Below, one piece after another: positions 7,200 through 25,879 of a stretch of DNA of 40,116 nucleotides. Origin of the DNA: a virus. Each line of letters starts with the position of its first letter. The first letter of the stretch is position 1. Where the stretch lies: positions 1-40,116 of IMG/VR virus record IMGVR_UViG_3300027969_000197. One strand, 5' to 3'. Made by a program: the position numbers and the translations under genes. Under the pieces are notes generated by a model. The model was not told where the DNA came from, ran no database searches, and was given only the letters and a program-made list of their open reading frames with translations.

Positions 7200-7465
7200 T
7201 CTTCACCTTTGTTTCCATAAATATTTGCTCTAGCAGCTTTTGGACTGCCATAGAGTGTGTTTGCACGTACCCTAATGAAACGCATGTTGCTTGCTGTGCC
7301 GGGAACTGTAATCCAAGGATTCTGCCCCTTTCTCCAAGCCTCAAGCTTGTTAATCATCTTATCAAATTCTGATCTATCACGACGAACAGCATTTACTGCC
7401 CAACGTCCAATTGAACGGCGTTCACCCTTCGACACCTGTGTCTTACGACTGCGCTTCTTACCCAT
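7196..7465 (-). CDS. Conserved small basic protein
   Basis: The 89-residue protein is strongly basic (MGKKRSRKTQVSKGERRSIGRW at the N-terminus; about 20 Arg/Lys overall). It has a central helix 'SEFDKMINKLEAWRKGQNPW'. Nucleic-acid binding is likely from composition alone. AAGGTGAA lies upstream of the ATG, and the stop overlaps the glycosyltransferase start. I recall similar proteins in T4-like phages of aquatic bacteria, without a function. Confidence 0.75.
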   Translation of the reverse strand: MGKKRSRKTQVSKGERRSIGRWAVNAVRRDRSEFDKMINKLEAWRKGQNPWITVPGTASNMRFIRVRANTLYGSPKAARANIYGNKGEE

Positions 7466-7479
7466 AGTTTATTCACCTT

Positions 7480-7866
7480 TCATTTTTTACCATGATCTAG
7501 AACAGTCAAATTATGTTCACGATCAATATACTTATACTCAATTTCTGTAGGACCGAATTCTTCTAATGCATCAAACACATTTTTAATATCTAACGTAGAG
7601 CACGTATATACATCAAGTTGCATAAGTGCAGGATCAACTTCATCCCAGACATGCATAGCAATATGACTAGTCTCAATAATTGTAACAGCAGTCAAGCCCC
7701 TATTACCAACCATATCAGAATACACTGCATATGGACCCATGAGAATTTTCATGCCAATCTTATCCACGAGCTTCTTCATCCAATCTTGAATTGCTTCAAC
7801 GCACTGTGGCGGATTAAACAATTCTGCTCGTACAATTAGATGCTTATGTTCCAATATCTGTAGCAA
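7480..7866 (-). CDS. speD: S-adenosylmethionine decarboxylase-like proenzyme (SpeD family)
   Basis: A 128-residue protein with the class 1b AdoMetDC pattern: 'HLIV' at the N-terminus, the self-cleavage region 'IIETSHIAMHVWDE' and 'LMQLDVYTCS'. By comparison with Thermotoga SpeD, Ser67 would become the pyruvoyl group, His72 the proton donor in processing (same +5 spacing) and Cys89 the catalytic acid. The residue before Ser67 is Thr66 rather than the usual Glu, with Glu65 one position earlier. The enzyme would make decarboxylated AdoMet for spermidine synthesis. The only plausible start is TTG 7866 (AAAGGG 10 bases upstream); a nearby ATG at 7871 is out of frame. Confidence 0.82.
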   Translation of the reverse strand: MLQILEHKHLIVRAELFNPPQCVEAIQDWMKKLVDKIGMKILMGPYAVYSDMVGNRGLTAVTIIETSHIAMHVWDEVDPALMQLDVYTCSTLDIKNVFDALEEFGPTEIEYKYIDREHNLTVLDHGKK

Positions 7867-7880
7867 CTCATAAATTCCCT

Positions 7881-8303
7881 TTATTCTATAGTTTTTAAAT
7901 GTTCTTTCAAAATGTTTGATCCACCAATTCTTACGTTTATGATACCATTATAGTAATCATCGGTTTCTAATACTCTACGTTCAAATTGTTCTCTTGCTTC
8001 CAGATAACTAGCAATACCTCTACTTGGACAAAAATGCAAAATTTCTCTTGTAAAATTTTCAGGGCCAAGTTGTTCTACATCGGCATTTAGTCTGTCGCTA
8101 GAACCCCAATATTCTCGCCAATCACTTTCTTTTGTAGAACGTCTTTTGTTTTTCTTGCCTTTAAGCGGTGGCTTTGTGATTTTAAACTTTGCTAACTTTT
8201 TACCAACATACATCATACCAGATATTTTGTTAGTAATCAAGTAGACAAATGCCTCACACCCTGCTGGCAATTCAGTTAATTCTTTGTTTTTATATAACCA
8301 CAT
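7881..8303 (-). CDS. GIY-YIG-like endonuclease (SegE-type)
   Basis: The 140-residue protein opens with 'CEAFVYLITNKISGMMYVGKK', the VY...YVG core of GIY-YIG nucleases. It continues with 'DWREYWGSS' and 'REILHFCPSRGIASYLEAREQFERRVLE', as in T4-like putative Seg-type endonucleases. Such proteins cut DNA and can be mobile. ATG 8303 is preferred to GTG 8315 because GGAG lies 6 bases upstream. That GGAG is within a 7-bp hairpin (8307-8326), so translation may be restricted. Confidence 0.8.
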   Translation of the reverse strand: MWLYKNKELTELPAGCEAFVYLITNKISGMMYVGKKLAKFKITKPPLKGKKNKRRSTKESDWREYWGSSDRLNADVEQLGPENFTREILHFCPSRGIASYLEAREQFERRVLETDDYYNGIINVRIGGSNILKEHLKTIE

Positions 8304-9310: not shown

Positions 9311-10299
9311 GATGCTGCCCAAACATCCTGCCAAGTTCCACTCAGAGCGCCCTTAGCATAGTCTGTAGAACGATTTTCAAAGAAGTTTGTATGAGATGGA
9401 GCATTGATCATACCTTCAACCCATGGAAGTGGATTCTTCTTTACTTTAAAGATACCCTTTAGCCCAAGAGCAATCAAACGACGATCAGCAATATATCGAA
9501 TATACTTCTTCACTTCATCAGAAGTTAAGTTCTGCATTGGACCCATACTGAATGATAGATCAATAAACTTGTCTTCAAGAGCAACCATCTTTTCAGCAAT
9601 ACCGTAGATACGTTCCTTGAGTTCATCATTCCAGATTTCATTATTCTCTTGAATATATGTACGGAATACCTTGATCATTGATTCGGCATGGATTGTTTCG
9701 TCAACAATTGACCATGTAACAATCTGACCCATACCCTTCATACGACCATGACGAGGGAAGTTCAATAGCATAATGAATGAAGAGAATAACTGCATACCTT
9801 CAGTAAAGGCTGAGAATGCAGCAATGTTTGCAGCAATCGTTTGCTTGTTATTATCAGCAATAGCCATCTCTATGATATATTCGTGCTTATCCTTCATAGC
9901 TTCATACTCAAGAAATTCTGAGTATGTTGCTTCAGGCATACCAAGAGTTTCAATCAAGTGTGAGTATGCAGCAATATGCAATGCTTCACGAGCAGCAAAA
10001 CCCAACAACATCATACGTACTTCAGGTTGACGAAAGTGTGGCAGGTAGTTATTTACATAACCGTTTGCAACGTCAATATCGCCTTGTGTGAAGAAACGAA
10101 AGATGTTGGTTAGGAAATACTTTTCTTCACTGGTAAGAAATTTCTTCCAATCTTGAAGGTCTTCAAGCATTGGTACTTCAGTGTGAAGCCAATGACTTTG
10201 TTCGTGCTTTAGCCAAGCATCATATGCCCAACTATAATTAAAAGGCTTAAAATAAGACCTTGTATCCATTAAGGACGATTCTGTACTTTTCTTTGCCAT
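9307..10299 (-). CDS. nrdB: Ribonucleotide reductase class Ia, beta subunit
   Basis: The 330-residue protein is the R2 subunit that houses the di-iron tyrosyl radical. Visible ligands are Asp in 'TQGDIDVANGY' (74-76), Glu105 and His108 in 'REALHIAAY', Glu in 'FTEGMQLFSS' and Glu/His in 'VDETIHAES'. The radical tyrosine is Tyr112, at the same +7 spacing from the Glu ligand as in E. coli NrdB. I chose ATG 10299, which overlaps the grx stop (TAATG) behind GGAG. With NrdA it converts ribonucleotides to deoxyribonucleotides for phage DNA synthesis. Confidence 0.95.
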   Translation of the reverse strand: MAKKSTESSLMDTRSYFKPFNYSWAYDAWLKHEQSHWLHTEVPMLEDLQDWKKFLTSEEKYFLTNIFRFFTQGDIDVANGYVNNYLPHFRQPEVRMMLLGFAAREALHIAAYSHLIETLGMPEATYSEFLEYEAMKDKHEYIIEMAIADNNKQTIAANIAAFSAFTEGMQLFSSFIMLLNFPRHGRMKGMGQIVTWSIVDETIHAESMIKVFRTYIQENNEIWNDELKERIYGIAEKMVALEDKFIDLSFSMGPMQNLTSDEVKKYIRYIADRRLIALGLKGIFKVKKNPLPWVEGMINAPSHTNFFENRSTDYAKGALSGTWQDVWAAS

Positions 10300-17562: not shown

Positions 17563-18081
17563 TTAGTTTCCCTTTCGGAATTGCTCTAGTGATTTACGCT
17601 TGAGAGGTTGATTGCTCTTCTTATACTTTTCAATTGCTTTAGGGAACATTGGAGGAGCATCACCCTTGTTAGTTCCATATACAGCAGGACCAGTTGAATT
17701 TACTGGTGCTCCACTAGCATCTTCAGTGGTAATACCAGCATGTTTCTCAGCAGATTTTTTAAATTCAAGACCAAAAAACTTTAACTTACCATGCTTATTT
17801 GAAGCTTTCCATCCTGCTTGTTTGTCACTACCAGTATGCATAAATGGTTTTACGTATGGTTTATTATTCGACTCATTTACATCTTCACTTTGAAGATAAT
17901 TAGCAGCAGTTGTGATATAGTCTTCAGCCAAGGTAATTTTTGATTGAACCCATTCAGGAAGATTTGTATCAGGGCTTAGCATGTCATGAATCTTCTGAGC
18001 ATTTCTCATAACACTCTTAAGCTGTGACATGGCCATATCACCTTCGTAGTCGTATTCGCCTTTATCTACAGATTTTGCCAT
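17563..18081 (-). CDS. Conserved virion-associated-type protein with 'SQLKSVMRNAQ' module
   Basis: The 172-residue protein has an N-terminal helical module, 'EYDYEGDMAMSQLKSV' and 'PEWVQSKITLAEDYITTA'. This is widespread among head- and tail-associated proteins of T4-like cyanophages and relatives. The second half is low-complexity and basic, ending 'KKSNQPLKRKSLEQFRKGN'. Function unknown, but the module suggests a virion component. Its start overlaps the upstream stop (TAATG). Confidence 0.75.
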   Translation of the reverse strand: MAKSVDKGEYDYEGDMAMSQLKSVMRNAQKIHDMLSPDTNLPEWVQSKITLAEDYITTAANYLQSEDVNESNNKPYVKPFMHTGSDKQAGWKASNKHGKLKFFGLEFKKSAEKHAGITTEDASGAPVNSTGPAVYGTNKGDAPPMFPKAIEKYKKSNQPLKRKSLEQFRKGN

Positions 18082-19164: not shown

Positions 19165-21702
19165 TTAGCGTTCTGTCTCTACAGTAATTCTTTTATCCTT
19201 GTGCTCTGGATGTGACTTAAGGAACCTTGCTTTGGCTTCCTCTGCATTCTTTGCCCAAGTTGTTGTAGCGATATACCTGCCACCTACTATAATATGTAAT
19301 GGCTTATGATCCCTCTTTTTGCCATAGGCTTCTTCAATAGTATCAACTTCTTCAGTTTCTACTGATTCATTCTTGGCACCATAGTATGCACCAAGCGCCA
19401 TTTTAATACGTTCTTTCTTTGTTTTACCTTCAAAGCGAGGGTCTTTTGACTTAACAAAGTCTTCGATGTATTTAGCAGTACCCATAGAAGGATTTAGCTT
19501 CTCTTCAATTGTCTCTTCCTTACGAACCATCTTGAAGTCTTGTGTGTCGAGCCTACCATTCTTGTTCTTGTCAAGCTTATGTTGATCACCAACTAAAGGT
19601 TTATCAATCTTCTTTACTCTTGCATATGACGGTGCTTTTTCATCTGAATATCTTTTACCAATTAAATGCTTATAATTAGTTCTATTGAATTCATTATCGA
19701 CCACCTCGACTTCTTCTTTAATACCATGAGTTCGATCAGCTAGGTCAGAAGTCTTATGATATGTACCGTCATCAATTGTCTTAATAGAAGTGCCAGGCTT
19801 GAAGCTATGAAGAACATCACTTTTACCGTGAATCATTGTTGGCCATGCACCAATTAGAGCAGCAGTGCCATTTTTGACACGCATAACATCTCCATCCTTA
19901 ATTTTATCGCTAGTCTGAGTGTGGTCATATACTTCGTCATGATCCATGTGACGTAGATCATGAACTTTAGGAGTATGTTCTTCACGCTTCTTACGTACAT
20001 GATTTTGATAATCTTTCGAGTTCTGCTTTTCAGCTTTATCACTAGCTATTTTATAAATTTTTAGACGAGAATCTGACATTGGTCCTTTTAAAGGTGGGTC
20101 TATTCTCCAACCCGAAGCAGTGGCGCTATCATCTACACGATGATTGAAATGATTGTTAAAGGTTTTAGATAACCAGCTACTACGTATTTTATGACTAATT
20201 TCATCAAGTTCGACTTCTTCATTCTTAGCAGTACGAACAGCAGGACCGCCTGTAGCCTTCTTCATTTCATCTTCATGCTTCTTCTTACGCATGTAAGCAG
20301 GAACAGTACCGTCTACAGCATCCTTTTCTTTCATCCAAGGCTCTAAAGCTTCTTTTTGAAGAGAACCATTCTTAGGACGATAGTTCTTTACTTCATACTC
20401 AGCAGTATGAGTAGCGTCTTCTCTACCTTCCTTGCCTTCGCCATGATAAGAAACTGGACCTTCACCCATATGCTTACCACCTTCATAGTGATGAACTTGA
20501 TATTCGTTGTAATCTGGATTAAAACGAACTTCTGCGTGATGACCATCTTTGCCTTGATGCTTTGAAATTAGACGAGTGCCTTTGATTGGGCTTTCAGCCT
20601 TGGCTTCATCAATCTTTTCAGCATCTTTTTTGGCCTTCATTCTTTCATCAGAAGCAGCCATAGCTGCTCTAATAGCAGCATTGCCTTTTAAAGGCTTAGG
20701 CTTGCTAACTGTTACATCTTTGCCATCAACTCTTTTAATTGTGTATGGATTTCTACCTTGAGAATAATATGCTTCGTCAAGTTCAGCTTCTTCATTATAA
20801 GAATAAGTTTTCTTCTTAGGCTCGTTGCTTTGATTCTTTTTAACATAATTCATTGCTTCGATTTCTGATGGGAATGATCTATGAAAAGTATTGCCTTTAT
20901 GAACGGTGTGTTGGCCAAGAACCTTTTTATATGTCAATTCAGTTCCTCTGGACTTTGGAGCATTATAACCACCGCCCTTTTCTTCACCTTCTTCAATTTC
21001 AACTTCTTCGCCCATGCCATGCTTCTTCCAATCAGGATGGCCATCCTTTGTAAGGTGCTTTACGTTAGGAAAAGTCTTCTTTGTTTCTTCAGCATTCTTT
21101 TTTGCAGCGTAGCCAGATGAACCCTTTAGAAGAGCGTGAATATTCCTTGCTGCTTTAGGACTGATCTTTTTACCAGAACGATTTGAAGAACTGATTGCCT
21201 TGTTTACAGCAACCTCATCATAAGCTTCATTTGTCTGTGAATCTCTTTCGGCTCTAAGCTTTCTTGCGAAGGCAAATGCTCGAACTTTTGAACCAAACTT
21301 CTTTGGATGTTCTGGTTCATCTTTACGTTCTTGCCATTTTGCTTCTGGAAAGTCTTTTTTATATTCATCGTCAGGCTTATGCATTAGTTTTACTTTATAA
21401 TGAATTCTATCAACATTATCATCATTCCTATAGCCATGAACTACATAGCCATTTCCAATAGTGCCAGATACTCTTTGGCCAGGCTTTTTATAATCGCCCT
21501 TTGGCGGCTTTTTAATATAAGCTTCAGTCTTCATTTCAGCATTTTCATCGTCGGCTTTCTTTTCAGACTTTTCATTGTCCATTTTTCCACAAGAGCAATT
21601 ATTGTCGCACTTACATGCTTTCTTCTTGCCTTCCATGACACCACGAACGTCAGCAAGTAGGCTCTTTGATAGACTGTCTAGGTAGTTATTATTCTTGATC
21701 AT
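19165..21702 (-). CDS. Large modular head-associated protein with processing-site-like linkers
   Basis: The 845-residue protein is a string of small basic modules separated by acidic linkers. The linkers end in Ile/Leu-x-Glu: IEE 236-238, LDE 308-310, IDE 364-366, LDE 499-501, IEE 732-734, IEE 789-791. T4 prohead protease gp21 cuts after Leu/Ile-x-Glu, so these look like processing sites. Recognisable modules are an EF-hand-like loop 'DKNKNGRLDTQD' (711-722) and 'KKERIKMALGAYYGAKNE' (about 762-778). A Cys cluster 'CKCDNNCSCG' lies near 30-39. ATG 21702 is preferred to TTG 21714 because GGAG lies 7 bases before it. Confidence 0.8.
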   Translation of the reverse strand: MIKNNNYLDSLSKSLLADVRGVMEGKKKACKCDNNCSCGKMDNEKSEKKADDENAEMKTEAYIKKPPKGDYKKPGQRVSGTIGNGYVVHGYRNDDNVDRIHYKVKLMHKPDDEYKKDFPEAKWQERKDEPEHPKKFGSKVRAFAFARKLRAERDSQTNEAYDEVAVNKAISSSNRSGKKISPKAARNIHALLKGSSGYAAKKNAEETKKTFPNVKHLTKDGHPDWKKHGMGEEVEIEEGEEKGGGYNAPKSRGTELTYKKVLGQHTVHKGNTFHRSFPSEIEAMNYVKKNQSNEPKKKTYSYNEEAELDEAYYSQGRNPYTIKRVDGKDVTVSKPKPLKGNAAIRAAMAASDERMKAKKDAEKIDEAKAESPIKGTRLISKHQGKDGHHAEVRFNPDYNEYQVHHYEGGKHMGEGPVSYHGEGKEGREDATHTAEYEVKNYRPKNGSLQKEALEPWMKEKDAVDGTVPAYMRKKKHEDEMKKATGGPAVRTAKNEEVELDEISHKIRSSWLSKTFNNHFNHRVDDSATASGWRIDPPLKGPMSDSRLKIYKIASDKAEKQNSKDYQNHVRKKREEHTPKVHDLRHMDHDEVYDHTQTSDKIKDGDVMRVKNGTAALIGAWPTMIHGKSDVLHSFKPGTSIKTIDDGTYHKTSDLADRTHGIKEEVEVVDNEFNRTNYKHLIGKRYSDEKAPSYARVKKIDKPLVGDQHKLDKNKNGRLDTQDFKMVRKEETIEEKLNPSMGTAKYIEDFVKSKDPRFEGKTKKERIKMALGAYYGAKNESVETEEVDTIEEAYGKKRDHKPLHIIVGGRYIATTTWAKNAEEAKARFLKSHPEHKDKRITVETER

Positions 21703-22353: not shown

Positions 22354-22794
22354 TTAGCCCCTCTTTACAGTTGAACGAAGCATCCATGATTGCTTTTCGT
22401 AATCATCAATTAGACCTTCAAGGAAATTTAAAACACCATGTTGCTTTAGTTCATCAGCAGTTGCACATGCAATCTTTGCAGTAGCAAGAACCTTGCCGTT
22501 ATCACCATAGAGACGATTAATCATCTCAAGTGCAATAGGAACAGTTGTCTCATCTTGAATTGATGTTAGCTCTTGAAAGCGTCCGAATGAAGCAGGGGTA
22601 TATGAATCTAGAGCACGAATGTGTTCTGCAACCAAATCCACATCATCAGCAGCCTTTTCATAGATACCACCAAACAAACCGTGATATTGTGGAAAATCTG
22701 GTCCTTCCACATTCCAGTGGTAGTTTTGAGCTTTTAGACCATACGCATAAACATCAGCCAATAATTTCTTCATTTGTTCAATTAATTCATTCAT
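22354..22794 (-). CDS. Dps-like ferritin-fold protein
   Basis: The 146-residue four-helix protein keeps the Dps intersubunit ferroxidase ligands with exact spacing: His26 ('QNYHWNVEG'), His38 ('QYHGLFGGIYEK'), Asp53 and Glu57 ('DDVDLVAEHIRALD'). These correspond to E. coli Dps His51, His63, Asp78 and Glu82. Dps proteins form 12-mer cages that oxidise iron with peroxide and protect DNA. It lacks the Lys-rich N-terminal tail that binds DNA in E. coli Dps. It lies among late head genes behind an AATAAATA box and AGGA. Confidence 0.9.
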   Translation of the reverse strand: MNELIEQMKKLLADVYAYGLKAQNYHWNVEGPDFPQYHGLFGGIYEKAADDVDLVAEHIRALDSYTPASFGRFQELTSIQDETTVPIALEMINRLYGDNGKVLATAKIACATADELKQHGVLNFLEGLIDDYEKQSWMLRSTVKRG

Positions 22795-22832: not shown

Positions 22833-24449
22833 TCATTTACCGTCGAATGGATTGTCATGTGGATGAAGAATAACATCATTCTTTTTTACATTCTTTGTCT
22901 TAGCAGGTATAGTGATTGACTGTCCTGTCTTCTGACTAACAATTGTATGTGCAGGAACGATAACACCATGTGATTCACCGCTTCTTACAGTTTCATTCAT
23001 GTTATTGATGTATGCAGCAACCGATTCAATATAGCGTTCTAACTTAAGGATTTGTGCTTGTGACCATGCATCACGATCAATATTTGCTGATTTAATATTT
23101 TCAATTGTAGCAAATGCTTCATTGACCATATCAATTAGATTGTCCATGGAGATTGATAGCTCATCCTTATCTTCTTCAAGGATGGTGGCTTGAAATGCTT
23201 TCTCAATCTGTTCCTTAATAGCAGTGACGTTCATAACGTCTTTAACATCATTGTGATGAGCAAACCCACCTTGAGTTTTCATCATTAATTGATGTGCTGT
23301 AGGAGCCAGTGTTGGCTTTCCTTGATAGTCAAATGCCATGTTGAAAGATTCATTTAGACCTTTTGATGTATCTACAAATTCTTCGTTAGCAGAATTCCAT
23401 CCACCACCCTTTGATTTATACCACTTAGCAGCCCAACCATTTGCATAAGCAGATGGGTATACGTCAAACTTTTGACGAGCAAGAGACTTCGCTTTTGACC
23501 AAAGTGTTGGATTGGTAGGAGAATTTTTTTCATCAAGCTGTTCTTCTTTTATTGGTTTCTTACCAGCTTTCTTCATAGCAATAGCAATTGCAGCTTGTTG
23601 TGCTGGGTTTACAGCTTCTGTTGCAACATTAATTGGCTTACCACCCTTACCTTCTCTATCGGCAACAGGGTCTTCTCTACGCTTACGTCGAGCAGCTTTG
23701 GCTCTATCCTTTGGGTCCATAGCTTGTGCTTGAGCCATTGGAAGACACTTTGGTTTGCCTTCACCTTCTTCTCTAGCACAGTCGCCTTTGATCTTACCCT
23801 TGGTGTCCATGCGAACCCATTTCTGATCGAACCATTTACGCAAATCTTCTGCTAAATCTGAATCTTCATTGAAATATGTTTTGCCCTTATTGATAAAAGA
23901 GTTTACACGAGCAAATGCGTATTGTTGTTGTGAAACATTTGTGTCTTCATACCATACAGAAATACCACGATTATAAATTTCGCCAATGATGGTAATATCG
24001 ATATTTGCCTTTTCGGCTTTGTTTAGTAATGCTTTGTATACTGGACTATCAAGCGCAACTTCTTCACCAAAGGTATTGTGCACTATGATGTGAGGTGACT
24101 TACCCTTCTTGGTTTCAGGCTTCTTTTCAGTAGACTTGATTGTTAAAGAGAATTTCTTATTAAGAGCTTCATGAACATCACCCTTTTCTGGGGAACCATT
24201 ATTCGATAACGGACTTCCAGCGGTGAATGAATCTTTACGCTTCTTTTCATTATTGGCAATTTGTGGAATTAATTTTAGAGCAATCTTTTTAATATGAGTT
24301 TGCTTTGTTTCAATCGCTCTGTCAATGTTCATCTTTTCAGTTGGACCAAGCTTTTCATAAGCAGCACCAGCACTCTCAGCAAGACGATTTCTCACGAGTT
24401 GTCTGGCTGCACTATAAGCTTTATTTCTAATGTTTTCAGGTGTGCTCAT
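22833..24449 (-). CDS. Modular head-associated protein with DUF5872/6321-like region
   Basis: The 538-residue protein starts MSTPENIRNKAYSAARQLVR. It has an N-terminal helical domain ('IETKQTHIKKIALKLIPQI') shared with T4-like cyanophage relatives and a central 'WVRMDTKGKIKGDCARE' ... 'GKPKCLPMAQAQAM' ... 'RRKRREDP' region. That region is a known small basic phage module with paired cysteines. The linker 'KKPIKEEQLDEKNSP' near 310 has a Leu-x-Glu cleavage-like site. ATG 24449 follows GAGGAAA. Likely virion/head-linked; biochemical role unknown. Confidence 0.78.
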   Translation of the reverse strand: MSTPENIRNKAYSAARQLVRNRLAESAGAAYEKLGPTEKMNIDRAIETKQTHIKKIALKLIPQIANNEKKRKDSFTAGSPLSNNGSPEKGDVHEALNKKFSLTIKSTEKKPETKKGKSPHIIVHNTFGEEVALDSPVYKALLNKAEKANIDITIIGEIYNRGISVWYEDTNVSQQQYAFARVNSFINKGKTYFNEDSDLAEDLRKWFDQKWVRMDTKGKIKGDCAREEGEGKPKCLPMAQAQAMDPKDRAKAARRKRREDPVADREGKGGKPINVATEAVNPAQQAAIAIAMKKAGKKPIKEEQLDEKNSPTNPTLWSKAKSLARQKFDVYPSAYANGWAAKWYKSKGGGWNSANEEFVDTSKGLNESFNMAFDYQGKPTLAPTAHQLMMKTQGGFAHHNDVKDVMNVTAIKEQIEKAFQATILEEDKDELSISMDNLIDMVNEAFATIENIKSANIDRDAWSQAQILKLERYIESVAAYINNMNETVRSGESHGVIVPAHTIVSQKTGQSITIPAKTKNVKKNDVILHPHDNPFDGK

Positions 24450-24675: not shown

Positions 24676-24969
24676 TTAAACTTTACATCTCCACCTTTTT
24701 AGAGACATTGCCTTACGTGTAGGTCTTCCTTTTTCATCTTTCATTGGGCCGGGCATACCAGACATTCTTGCACAGAATGATTTACGGCGTTTACCTGACT
24801 TAGAATCAGGATCGACATTCTTTTTTGTTACAGCAGTCTTTATACCAAAGTGCGCTGCACCCTTCTTTGTAAGACCAGCACCATCTTCTGTTGCACGGTA
24901 ATATCCTTTACCGTCTTCACCACGCTCTATGAGAACACATTCTGAAATAAAATCTTTTAGCGTTTTCAT
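24676..24969 (-). CDS. DUF6321-domain protein with internal-head-protein-like N-terminus
   Basis: The 97-residue basic protein contains 'GAGLTKKGAAHFGIKTAV', 'GKRRKSFCARMSGMPGPM' and 'KGRPTRKAMSLKRW', the signature of DUF6321. Its start MKTLKDFISECVLIE closely resembles the capsid-targeting peptide of T4 internal proteins (MKTYQEFIAEA), with a possible Leu-Ile-Glu cut site. That suggests packaging into the prohead and trimming. ATG 24969 lies 2 bases beyond the upstream stop; an in-frame start at 24999 lies within the upstream gene. Confidence 0.82.
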   Translation of the reverse strand: MKTLKDFISECVLIERGEDGKGYYRATEDGAGLTKKGAAHFGIKTAVTKKNVDPDSKSGKRRKSFCARMSGMPGPMKDEKGRPTRKAMSLKRWRCKV

Positions 24970-24970
24970 C

Positions 24971-25879
24971 TTATGATAGTTCCTTAATAGTAAATGCAAA
25001 CCATACGTCTAGTTTGGTTGAATTATCAACACGTCTCATACACAAAGTAAGCATATTTGGAGTTCCACCGCCATGCATTGATGCTGGGCCTTCATCACCA
25101 GATGTATTCTTACCAATAATGATACCACTATGTCTCATTATTGAACCGTTTGGAGTAAACGTGTTTCCTTGATTAGAAGAATATTTGTCTTGATATACAC
25201 GATATTGACTGTGAACACCAAACGTAGTCCAAGCAGGTATAGCTGCTCCAGTTATTGTTAGATCACCTTCATACCACTCATACACAATAGTGCTTTGATT
25301 AGCGTTGTTGTTTCCAATTTCATATTCAATAATTTTTATTAAATCCGCAACACTTGCACTATTATTTCTAAAACTAACAACAGGACGCATAGTATCGTCC
25401 ATAGTCCAACCACGATTCGTATTTATTGCATGATTATTAAAGGCATATAAATCACCCGCTTCTTGTGTTGTAATAACAGTAACAGTACTAGTAATATTTA
25501 TATTACCAGAAGTTACAACAACATTCTGTGATGCAGGGAAGTTGCCTACGTTAACAATACCAGTAACATTTGAATTTAGATTGCCTGATGTAATTACTAC
25601 ATTACCACTAACAGGCATATACGAAACTGTTAAAATACCACTATTACCAACTTCAGTAATATGGCTGTGTACTGGATTTTCAGGAGTACTAGATACTTCA
25701 ACTGTTGTACCAACATTCACATTTCCAGTGATTGTAATATTATTGGAACCTAGAGTGACAGGAAACGGATTAGCATTAGTGACAGGATCACCATTCACAG
25801 TAGCAATCATCCCCAACTCATATAGGGTCTTGCTGTTCTGTTCTACTTTTTTCTGTTGATCAATGCGCCACTGTGCCAT
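24971..25879 (-). CDS. Structural protein with beta-repeat N-terminal half
   Basis: The 302-residue protein starts MAQWRIDQQKKVEQNSKTLYEL. Residues about 40-135 form short Val/Asn/Gly-rich beta repeats ('GNVNVGTTVEVSS', 'GNVVITSGNLNSNVTG', 'NVVVTSGNINITSTV') typical of fibre shafts or beta-helices. The C-terminal half is globular and aromatic-rich ('TIVYEWYEGDLTITG', 'LDVWFAFTIKEL'). It is probably a virion fibre, tail or neck component; the exact part is unclear. Its ATG overlaps the upstream stop (TAATG). Confidence 0.78.
   Translation of the reverse strand: MAQWRIDQQKKVEQNSKTLYELGMIATVNGDPVTNANPFPVTLGSNNITITGNVNVGTTVEVSSTPENPVHSHITEVGNSGILTVSYMPVSGNVVITSGNLNSNVTGIVNVGNFPASQNVVVTSGNINITSTVTVITTQEAGDLYAFNNHAINTNRGWTMDDTMRPVVSFRNNSASVADLIKIIEYEIGNNNANQSTIVYEWYEGDLTITGAAIPAWTTFGVHSQYRVYQDKYSSNQGNTFTPNGSIMRHSGIIIGKNTSGDEGPASMHGGGTPNMLTLCMRRVDNSTKLDVWFAFTIKELS

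Follow-up and report, generated by a model that had tools for sequence, protein, structure and literature searches.

Here, we show that a 40,116-base stretch of viral DNA (the window; a complete IMG/VR record, and probably a genome fragment) encodes an 845-residue modular protein in which the placement of [LI]xE motifs within acidic linkers exceeds chance, even though their number does not. We consider it probable that this protein is a polyprotein of internal-head cargo, cut at [LIV]xE linkers by a protease of the T4 gp21 type, with release of the cargo. The original prediction, of a prohead-protease polyprotein, is supported in part. In its favor are [LI]xE motifs at module junctions, gp21 genes in relatives and homologous modules in virions; head location, cleavage, injection and the function of the pieces are what we infer.

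Genomic setting of the modular protein

By its T4-like replication genes and their order, the window is assigned to the T4 superfamily of phages. For the primase there are 2,357 matching phage records; T4-like cyanophages, at about 44–46% identity, make up most of the best ones listed. The order UvsX-DnaB...primase-NrdA-NrdB matches that of cyanophages S-WAM2 and S-H9-1. The 845-residue open reading frame, for which no strand had been named, is real: it runs on the minus strand from an ATG at 21702 to a stop at 19165, and the plus strand of this interval has stops throughout. The genes considered here are the following.

19165..21702, minus strand: 845-residue modular protein, predicted internal-head polyprotein (from the translation and the shuffled-module orthologues L002, L011 and L013)
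17563..18081, minus strand: 172-residue protein with a EYDYEGDMAMSQLK module (via the match of its L002 orthologue to S-WAM2)
22833..24449, minus strand: 538-residue modular neighbour with DUF5824, DUF5872 and phrog_727 modules and a QLDE linker
24676..24981, minus strand: DUF6321 protein with a T4-internal-protein-like start, MKTLKDFISE (PF19846, E=9.7e-15)

The L002 orthologue of the 172-residue protein matches an S-WAM2 protein that begins MKTFKQLRE (69.7%, E=4e-24). As first described, the 538-residue neighbour has its QLDE linker, near residue 308, and the DUF6321 gene begins with a targeting peptide like that of T4 internal proteins: MKTLKDFISE fits the capsid-targeting pattern MK-x-[FLY]-x-x-[FL]-[IL]-x-E.

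Several other genes accompany the modular-protein cluster. A Ferritin/Dps-like gene lies within it (22354-22794 in the window) and is also found in L002, L011 and L013. Upstream of the cluster, L002 (5390-5842) and L013 (7165-7599) encode ParB_N-like proteins with the T4-internal-protein-like starts MKTFRQFVDE and MKTLKQFLDE, respectively. The L011 gene at 7419-8129 carries an extra module between the targeting peptide and DUF6321, absent from the window and weakly similar to ryanodine-receptor repeat structures.

Features of the 845-residue protein

Along the protein, from its N terminus, we distinguish the features below, all on the minus strand.

21619..21702, minus strand: N-terminal segment MIKNNNYLDSLSKSLLADVRGVMEGKKK, residues 1-28; putative targeting segment, conserved among orthologues
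21589..21615, minus strand: Cys cluster CKCDNNCSC, residues 30-38; possible metal site (L002, L011 and L013 are also Cys-rich)
20989..20997, minus strand: predicted cut site IEE, residues 236-238 (orthologue comparison)
20773..20781, minus strand: predicted cut site LDE, residues 308-310 (orthologue comparison)
20605..20613, minus strand: predicted cut site IDE, residues 364-366 (orthologue comparison)
20347..20604, minus strand: ESPIKG module, residues 367-452 (phrog_7884)
20200..20208, minus strand: predicted cut site LDE, residues 499-501 (orthologue comparison)
19714..19722, minus strand: predicted cut site IKE, residues 661-663 (automatic block end at 664)
19537..19572, minus strand: EF-hand-like loop DKNKNGRLDTQD, residues 711-722; sub-threshold EF-hand matches, conserved in orthologues
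19501..19509, minus strand: predicted cut site IEE, residues 732-734 (each of the four orthologues has IEE or LEE)
19330..19338, minus strand: predicted cut site IEE, residues 789-791 (IEE, IDE or VDE in orthologues; slightly shifted in L002)
19168..19329, minus strand: C-terminal module, residues 792-845; strand-strand-helix-strand, conserved in orthologues

The six acidic linkers reported earlier are present, ending in IEE (238), LDE (310), IDE (366), LDE (501), IEE (734) and IEE (791), and a seventh [LI]xE, IKE at 663, can be added to them. The N-terminal cysteine cluster (C30, C32, C36 and C38) was also correctly identified and has counterparts in orthologues. The EF-hand-like loop is found at 711-722, yet its match lies below the Pfam cut-off (E=0.097; E=0.0048 in L015). 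The protein begins MIKNNNYLDSLSKSLL and lacks the capsid-targeting pattern given above, which is why we do not class it as a T4 internal protein; L015 has a related N-terminal start, ending SVEEPLEE. Pfam scans of the modular proteins in the window and relatives found no peptidase domain.

Between the predicted cuts, the pieces have net charges of +12, +1, +5, -3, +5, +1, -1 and +6. Their description as small basic modules was thus overstated: some are basic, up to +12, and others near neutral or negative. DNA condensation by basic peptides, one role suggested for them, is downgraded, since several pieces are near neutral.

Module shuffling among orthologues

Three metagenomic orthologues, L002 (obtained via IMG/VR) and L011 and L013 (from loci fetched with the neighbouring gene), contain modules that differ in order and number. 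The comparison of module order in relatives that had been called for thus reveals a different arrangement in each of the window, L011, L002 and L013. The ISHKL module comes before ESPIKG in L011 but after it in the window; VDFAKVRKQ comes before ESPIKG in L002 but after it in L013. The YYSQ module between LDE and IDE occurs in the window only, relative to the orthologues compared, and the SMG module, which follows IEE in the window, comes directly after the start Met in both L031 and L080. In phages, tblastn with the 845-residue protein gave no match at 1e-3, and searches with single modules gave weak matches at most.

Rearrangement often occurs at the linkers themselves. At residue 238, three orthologues have LDE or IEE, with a different module after each. 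After LDE at 310 comes AYYSQ in the window, AKAESP in L002 and ISHKL in L011. LDE at 501 is also found before ISHKL in L011, with a different upstream module, and IKE at 663 is kept in L011, with a different downstream one. The counterparts of IDE at 366 are IDE in L002, IAE in L028 and VNE/VVE in L011/L013. By eye, strict [LI]xE is present at about 7 of the 10 junctions of the window protein and missing from about three. Since some orthologues (often L013) have VxE in its place, [LIV]xE is the likelier rule.

Placement of [LI]xE in acidic linkers

Over the whole protein, [LI]xE occurs 7 times against 6.3 expected from shuffles (p=0.44), and the total count was accordingly rejected as evidence. 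Placement tells a different story. Neither L nor I entered into the definition of acidic segments, each of which was shuffled internally with its composition preserved. In the 845-residue protein, [LI]xE is found in 6 of 12 such segments versus 2.5 expected (p=0.002); Ex[LI], its mirror, is at chance (2 versus 2.5). Across ten related proteins, 48 of 76 segments contain [LI]xE, where 24.3 are expected (z=6.9, a value that overstates independence because the proteins are partly orthologous); the mirror stays at expectation (24 versus 24.4), and [LI]xD and [LI]E fall under it. When the set is widened to 88 proteins, the figures are 145 of 423 versus 94 (z=7.1), with several other motifs, the mirror included, also mildly raised. 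No such effect is seen in the window's other 51 open reading frames (11 versus 9.3, p=0.30).

We also compared motif positions with the ends of homology blocks. In the window protein, four of the seven [LI]xE sites lie no more than one residue from a block end called automatically (binomial p=1.4e-4), a result weakened by the mirror sites, two of five of which do so as well (p=0.02). More broadly, [LI]xE is found two residues or less from 19 of 112 C-terminal block ends (7.3 expected), and the mirror from 9 (5.5 expected). EE, [LI]xxE and any E are likewise enriched at block ends, EE even more than [LI]xE, a result that speaks for junctions at linkers more than for the exact motif. Because automatic calling of block ends is noisy, we take the shuffle test as the main evidence.

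These data bear on the possibility that the protein is an uncleaved multidomain virion component, its acidic linkers being flexible spacers and its modules shuffled by recombination at low-complexity sequence. The enrichment of EE at homology breaks, at least equal to that of [LI]xE, and some enrichment of mirror sites at block ends would fit such a protein. On the other hand, spacers of this kind do not account for a core set in which [LI]xE exceeds what composition predicts, Ex[LI] matches it and [LI]xD falls below it. Nor do they account for the P1' residue, which is Ala in 13 of 46 sites, as in the T4 gp23 site LTE|A, or for the gp21 genes of relatives described below. We regard an uncleaved protein as unlikely, and favor cleavage at the linkers.

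Predicted structures

A model of residues 700-845 has a mean pLDDT of 67, with moderate confidence in the flanking modules and low confidence (pLDDT<50) in both linkers, at residues 725-732 and 779-797. In AF2 models, the C-terminal module (792-845) reaches a pLDDT of about 78-86, and ESPIKG, with four strands and a helix, 72-87 over the module. Foldseek searches of the PDB returned nothing significant for ESPIKG or the 700-845 model. The ESPIKG fold also occurs in free-standing proteins of 62-74 residues in other phages; hence, the fold of one module, at least, is encoded elsewhere by a gene of its own.

Enzyme-like modules in relatives

Orthologues of the 538-residue neighbour in L011, L013 and L015 contain, between LxE linkers, an HD module like that of small alarmone hydrolases, which is absent from the window. 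The best PDB match of the L011 copy (9440-9961) is 7smg (E=3e-7); HD_4 or HD matches were obtained in L011 and L015, and the L013 copy was recognised by eye. In the modular protein at L031:4628-6757, a HicA-like module (PF07927, E=1e-6), likewise absent from the window, lies between EETELDE and EEVELDE. Judged from these matches, the cargo of relatives includes enzyme-like modules, namely a predicted small alarmone hydrolase and a HicA-like protein, and for this reason delivered proteins are likelier than DNA condensation.

Is it possible that the protein is instead a disposable part of the prohead core or scaffold, as T4 gp22 is, and that gp21 reduces it to peptides that exit the head, without any cargo being delivered? 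T4 gp22, gp67 and gp68 are indeed degraded by gp21 (PMC9958956). They are also rich in [LI]xE, with 24 versus 10.3 expected over whole proteins, the comparison used because their acidic segments are too few to be tested one by one. However, LxE abounds along the whole length of the T4 substrates, whereas in the modular protein the sites fall in linkers and the modules are spared. The conserved, folded modules of the AF2 models, the enzyme-like modules of relatives and the detection of related proteins in mature virions also argue against a disposable core protein, which we judge quite improbable. Internal cargo that persists in the head is the reading we retain.

Head protease and capsid protein in relatives

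PF03420 (gp21) and PF07068 have no match in the window or in the contigs of its closest relatives, all of which are without the head cluster. In contrast, all six relatives' IMG/VR contigs found to reach the head cluster (82 to 162 kb) match PF03420. Among contigs sharing a neighbouring gene, so does S-WAM2; those with no PF03420 match are all 99 kb or shorter. Five of the six gp21 proteins were read in detail, and the H, S and D positions of T4 gp21 are aligned in each. T4 gp21 cuts after Glu, and positions 8 and 10 of the capsid-targeting sequence are needed for processing, which in T4 is prevented by an Asp at position 10 (PMC9026906). In the gp23 proteins of these five relatives, an LxE (LFE, LME or LNE) lies a little ahead of the conserved capsid body, close to where T4 gp23 is cut at LTE|A.

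Related modules in cyanophage virions

Virions of two T4-like cyanophages have been found to contain proteins with modules in common with the window's gene cluster or its relatives, none of them an orthologue of the 845-residue protein. S-CREM2 gp160 and gp137 were found by mass spectrometry in CsCl-purified virions (PMC10665884), as was the modular protein SSZBM1_139 of S-SZBM1 (PMC9146016). gp160 has phrog_727 in common with the 538-residue neighbour, and its modules are separated by EENLEE and EETEISE. The C terminus of gp137 is a DUF6321-type module (phrog_10346), shared with the C-terminal module of the window's DUF6321 protein. By analogy with these homologous modules, a virion location for the 845-residue protein is supported, with the proviso that CsCl proteomics does not separate head from tail and may include contaminants.

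A further explanation places the protein outside the head, as an intracellular or tail-associated multidomain protein whose linkers carry such motifs by chance. Its gene does lie between replication and lysis genes, some cyanophage relatives are sited between gp16 and gp17, and virion proteomics of this kind gives no location. Yet the gene for SSZBM1_139 lies, as in the window, in the UvsX-DnaB...primase-NrdA interval, and the adjoining DUF6321 gene has a capsid-targeting-like start. We consider a non-head protein very improbable, and a head protein remains our preferred reading.

T4-like targeting starts are more frequent among the virion proteins of S-CREM2 (7 of 49) than among its other proteins (2 of 104; Fisher p=0.005), in a set of 153 annotated proteins selected mainly by length, and inner windows show no excess. 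Among relatives' open reading frames, the motif lies at positions 7-13 in 70 of 1118, versus 23-34 in inner windows. Such starts may predict virion cargo in cyanophages. Virion-detected S-CREM2 (OR473000; L110/L102) proteins with T4-internal-protein-like starts include a SAM hydrolase (MKDFDSFLEE), an APH-like kinase (MKRFDAFLTE), gp13 (MKDLHSFLTE) and a cytidylyltransferase (MKNFSSFLTE); S-SZBM1 virions contain a cytidylyltransferase starting MRFRQFIIE (PMC9146016).

Separately, GFTGAAAPEGPVAGYDPLM is present in both S-CREM2 gp160 (L102:24343-25236) and S-B64 gp085 (L006:5848-6600), the latter named major head protein in RefSeq. It resembles the part of gp23 just past the predicted cut site (phrog_696 match).

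Proposed mechanism

We propose that the 845-residue polyprotein enters the prohead core, where a gp21-type protease, not encoded on this contig, would cut after Glu in the [LIV]xE of flexible acidic linkers. The linkers would act as separators whose cutting frees some eight or more small proteins, each folding on its own. These modules would remain in the head with the DNA, and some of them might pass into the host when the phage infects. Most modules being flanked by a cut site, the gain, loss or reordering of one should be harmless to the others.

It is also conceivable that this arrangement is a widespread polyprotein cargo system of aquatic T4-like phages, in which modules lie between protease sites, are cut apart by gp21 and are injected as a cocktail including alarmone hydrolase, HicA-like or other host-directed proteins, new ones being gained by insertion between cut sites. 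We advance this broader idea tentatively, at somewhat less than even confidence. If true, gp21 would be both a maturation enzyme and the releaser of a combinatorial set of delivered proteins, and functions would be suggested for the DUF5824, DUF5872, DUF6321, phrog_727 and phrog_7884 modules of abundant aquatic phages.

Comparison with known systems

A search of the open-access literature turned up no account of these modules or of a system of this kind. The closest parallel is with the T4 internal proteins (IPI-III, Alt) and gp21, which are alike in the predicted cuts after (L/I)xE, the targeting start on a neighbouring gene, the poorly conserved cargo and the H, S and D positions of gp21 in relatives. 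However, each T4 internal protein is a single protein that sheds a short propeptide from its N terminus; here, many modules follow one another in one chain, most junctions have a site, and the modules are reshuffled between phages. T4 gp22, gp67 and gp68 are alike in having multiple [LI]xE sites, and are cut many times by gp21 (PMC9958956). They are degraded to small peptides, whereas the modules described here are conserved and spared by the motif.

Polyvalent proteins (for example, P1 DdrB) are large, multidomain, have many effector domains and are thought to be injected with DNA (PMC5512222). Iyer et al. (2017) proposed that they are processed and likened them to polyproteins (PMC5512222). 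The likeness lies in the chaining of disparate domains: the window's modules belong to several families, and relatives add HD-hydrolase-like and HicA-like modules. Polyvalent proteins often, though not obligatorily, embed a metallopeptidase; here Pfam scans found none, and we propose instead that a separate protease of the head acts on the linker motifs. Finally, the inner-body proteins of phiKZ and SPN3US, with their protease gp175/gp245, are similar in that a gp21-like protease cuts after the Glu of a short motif (PMC5694885). The SPN3US motif is A-x-E and serves mainly for propeptide removal, whereas in the window we propose the release of chained modules.
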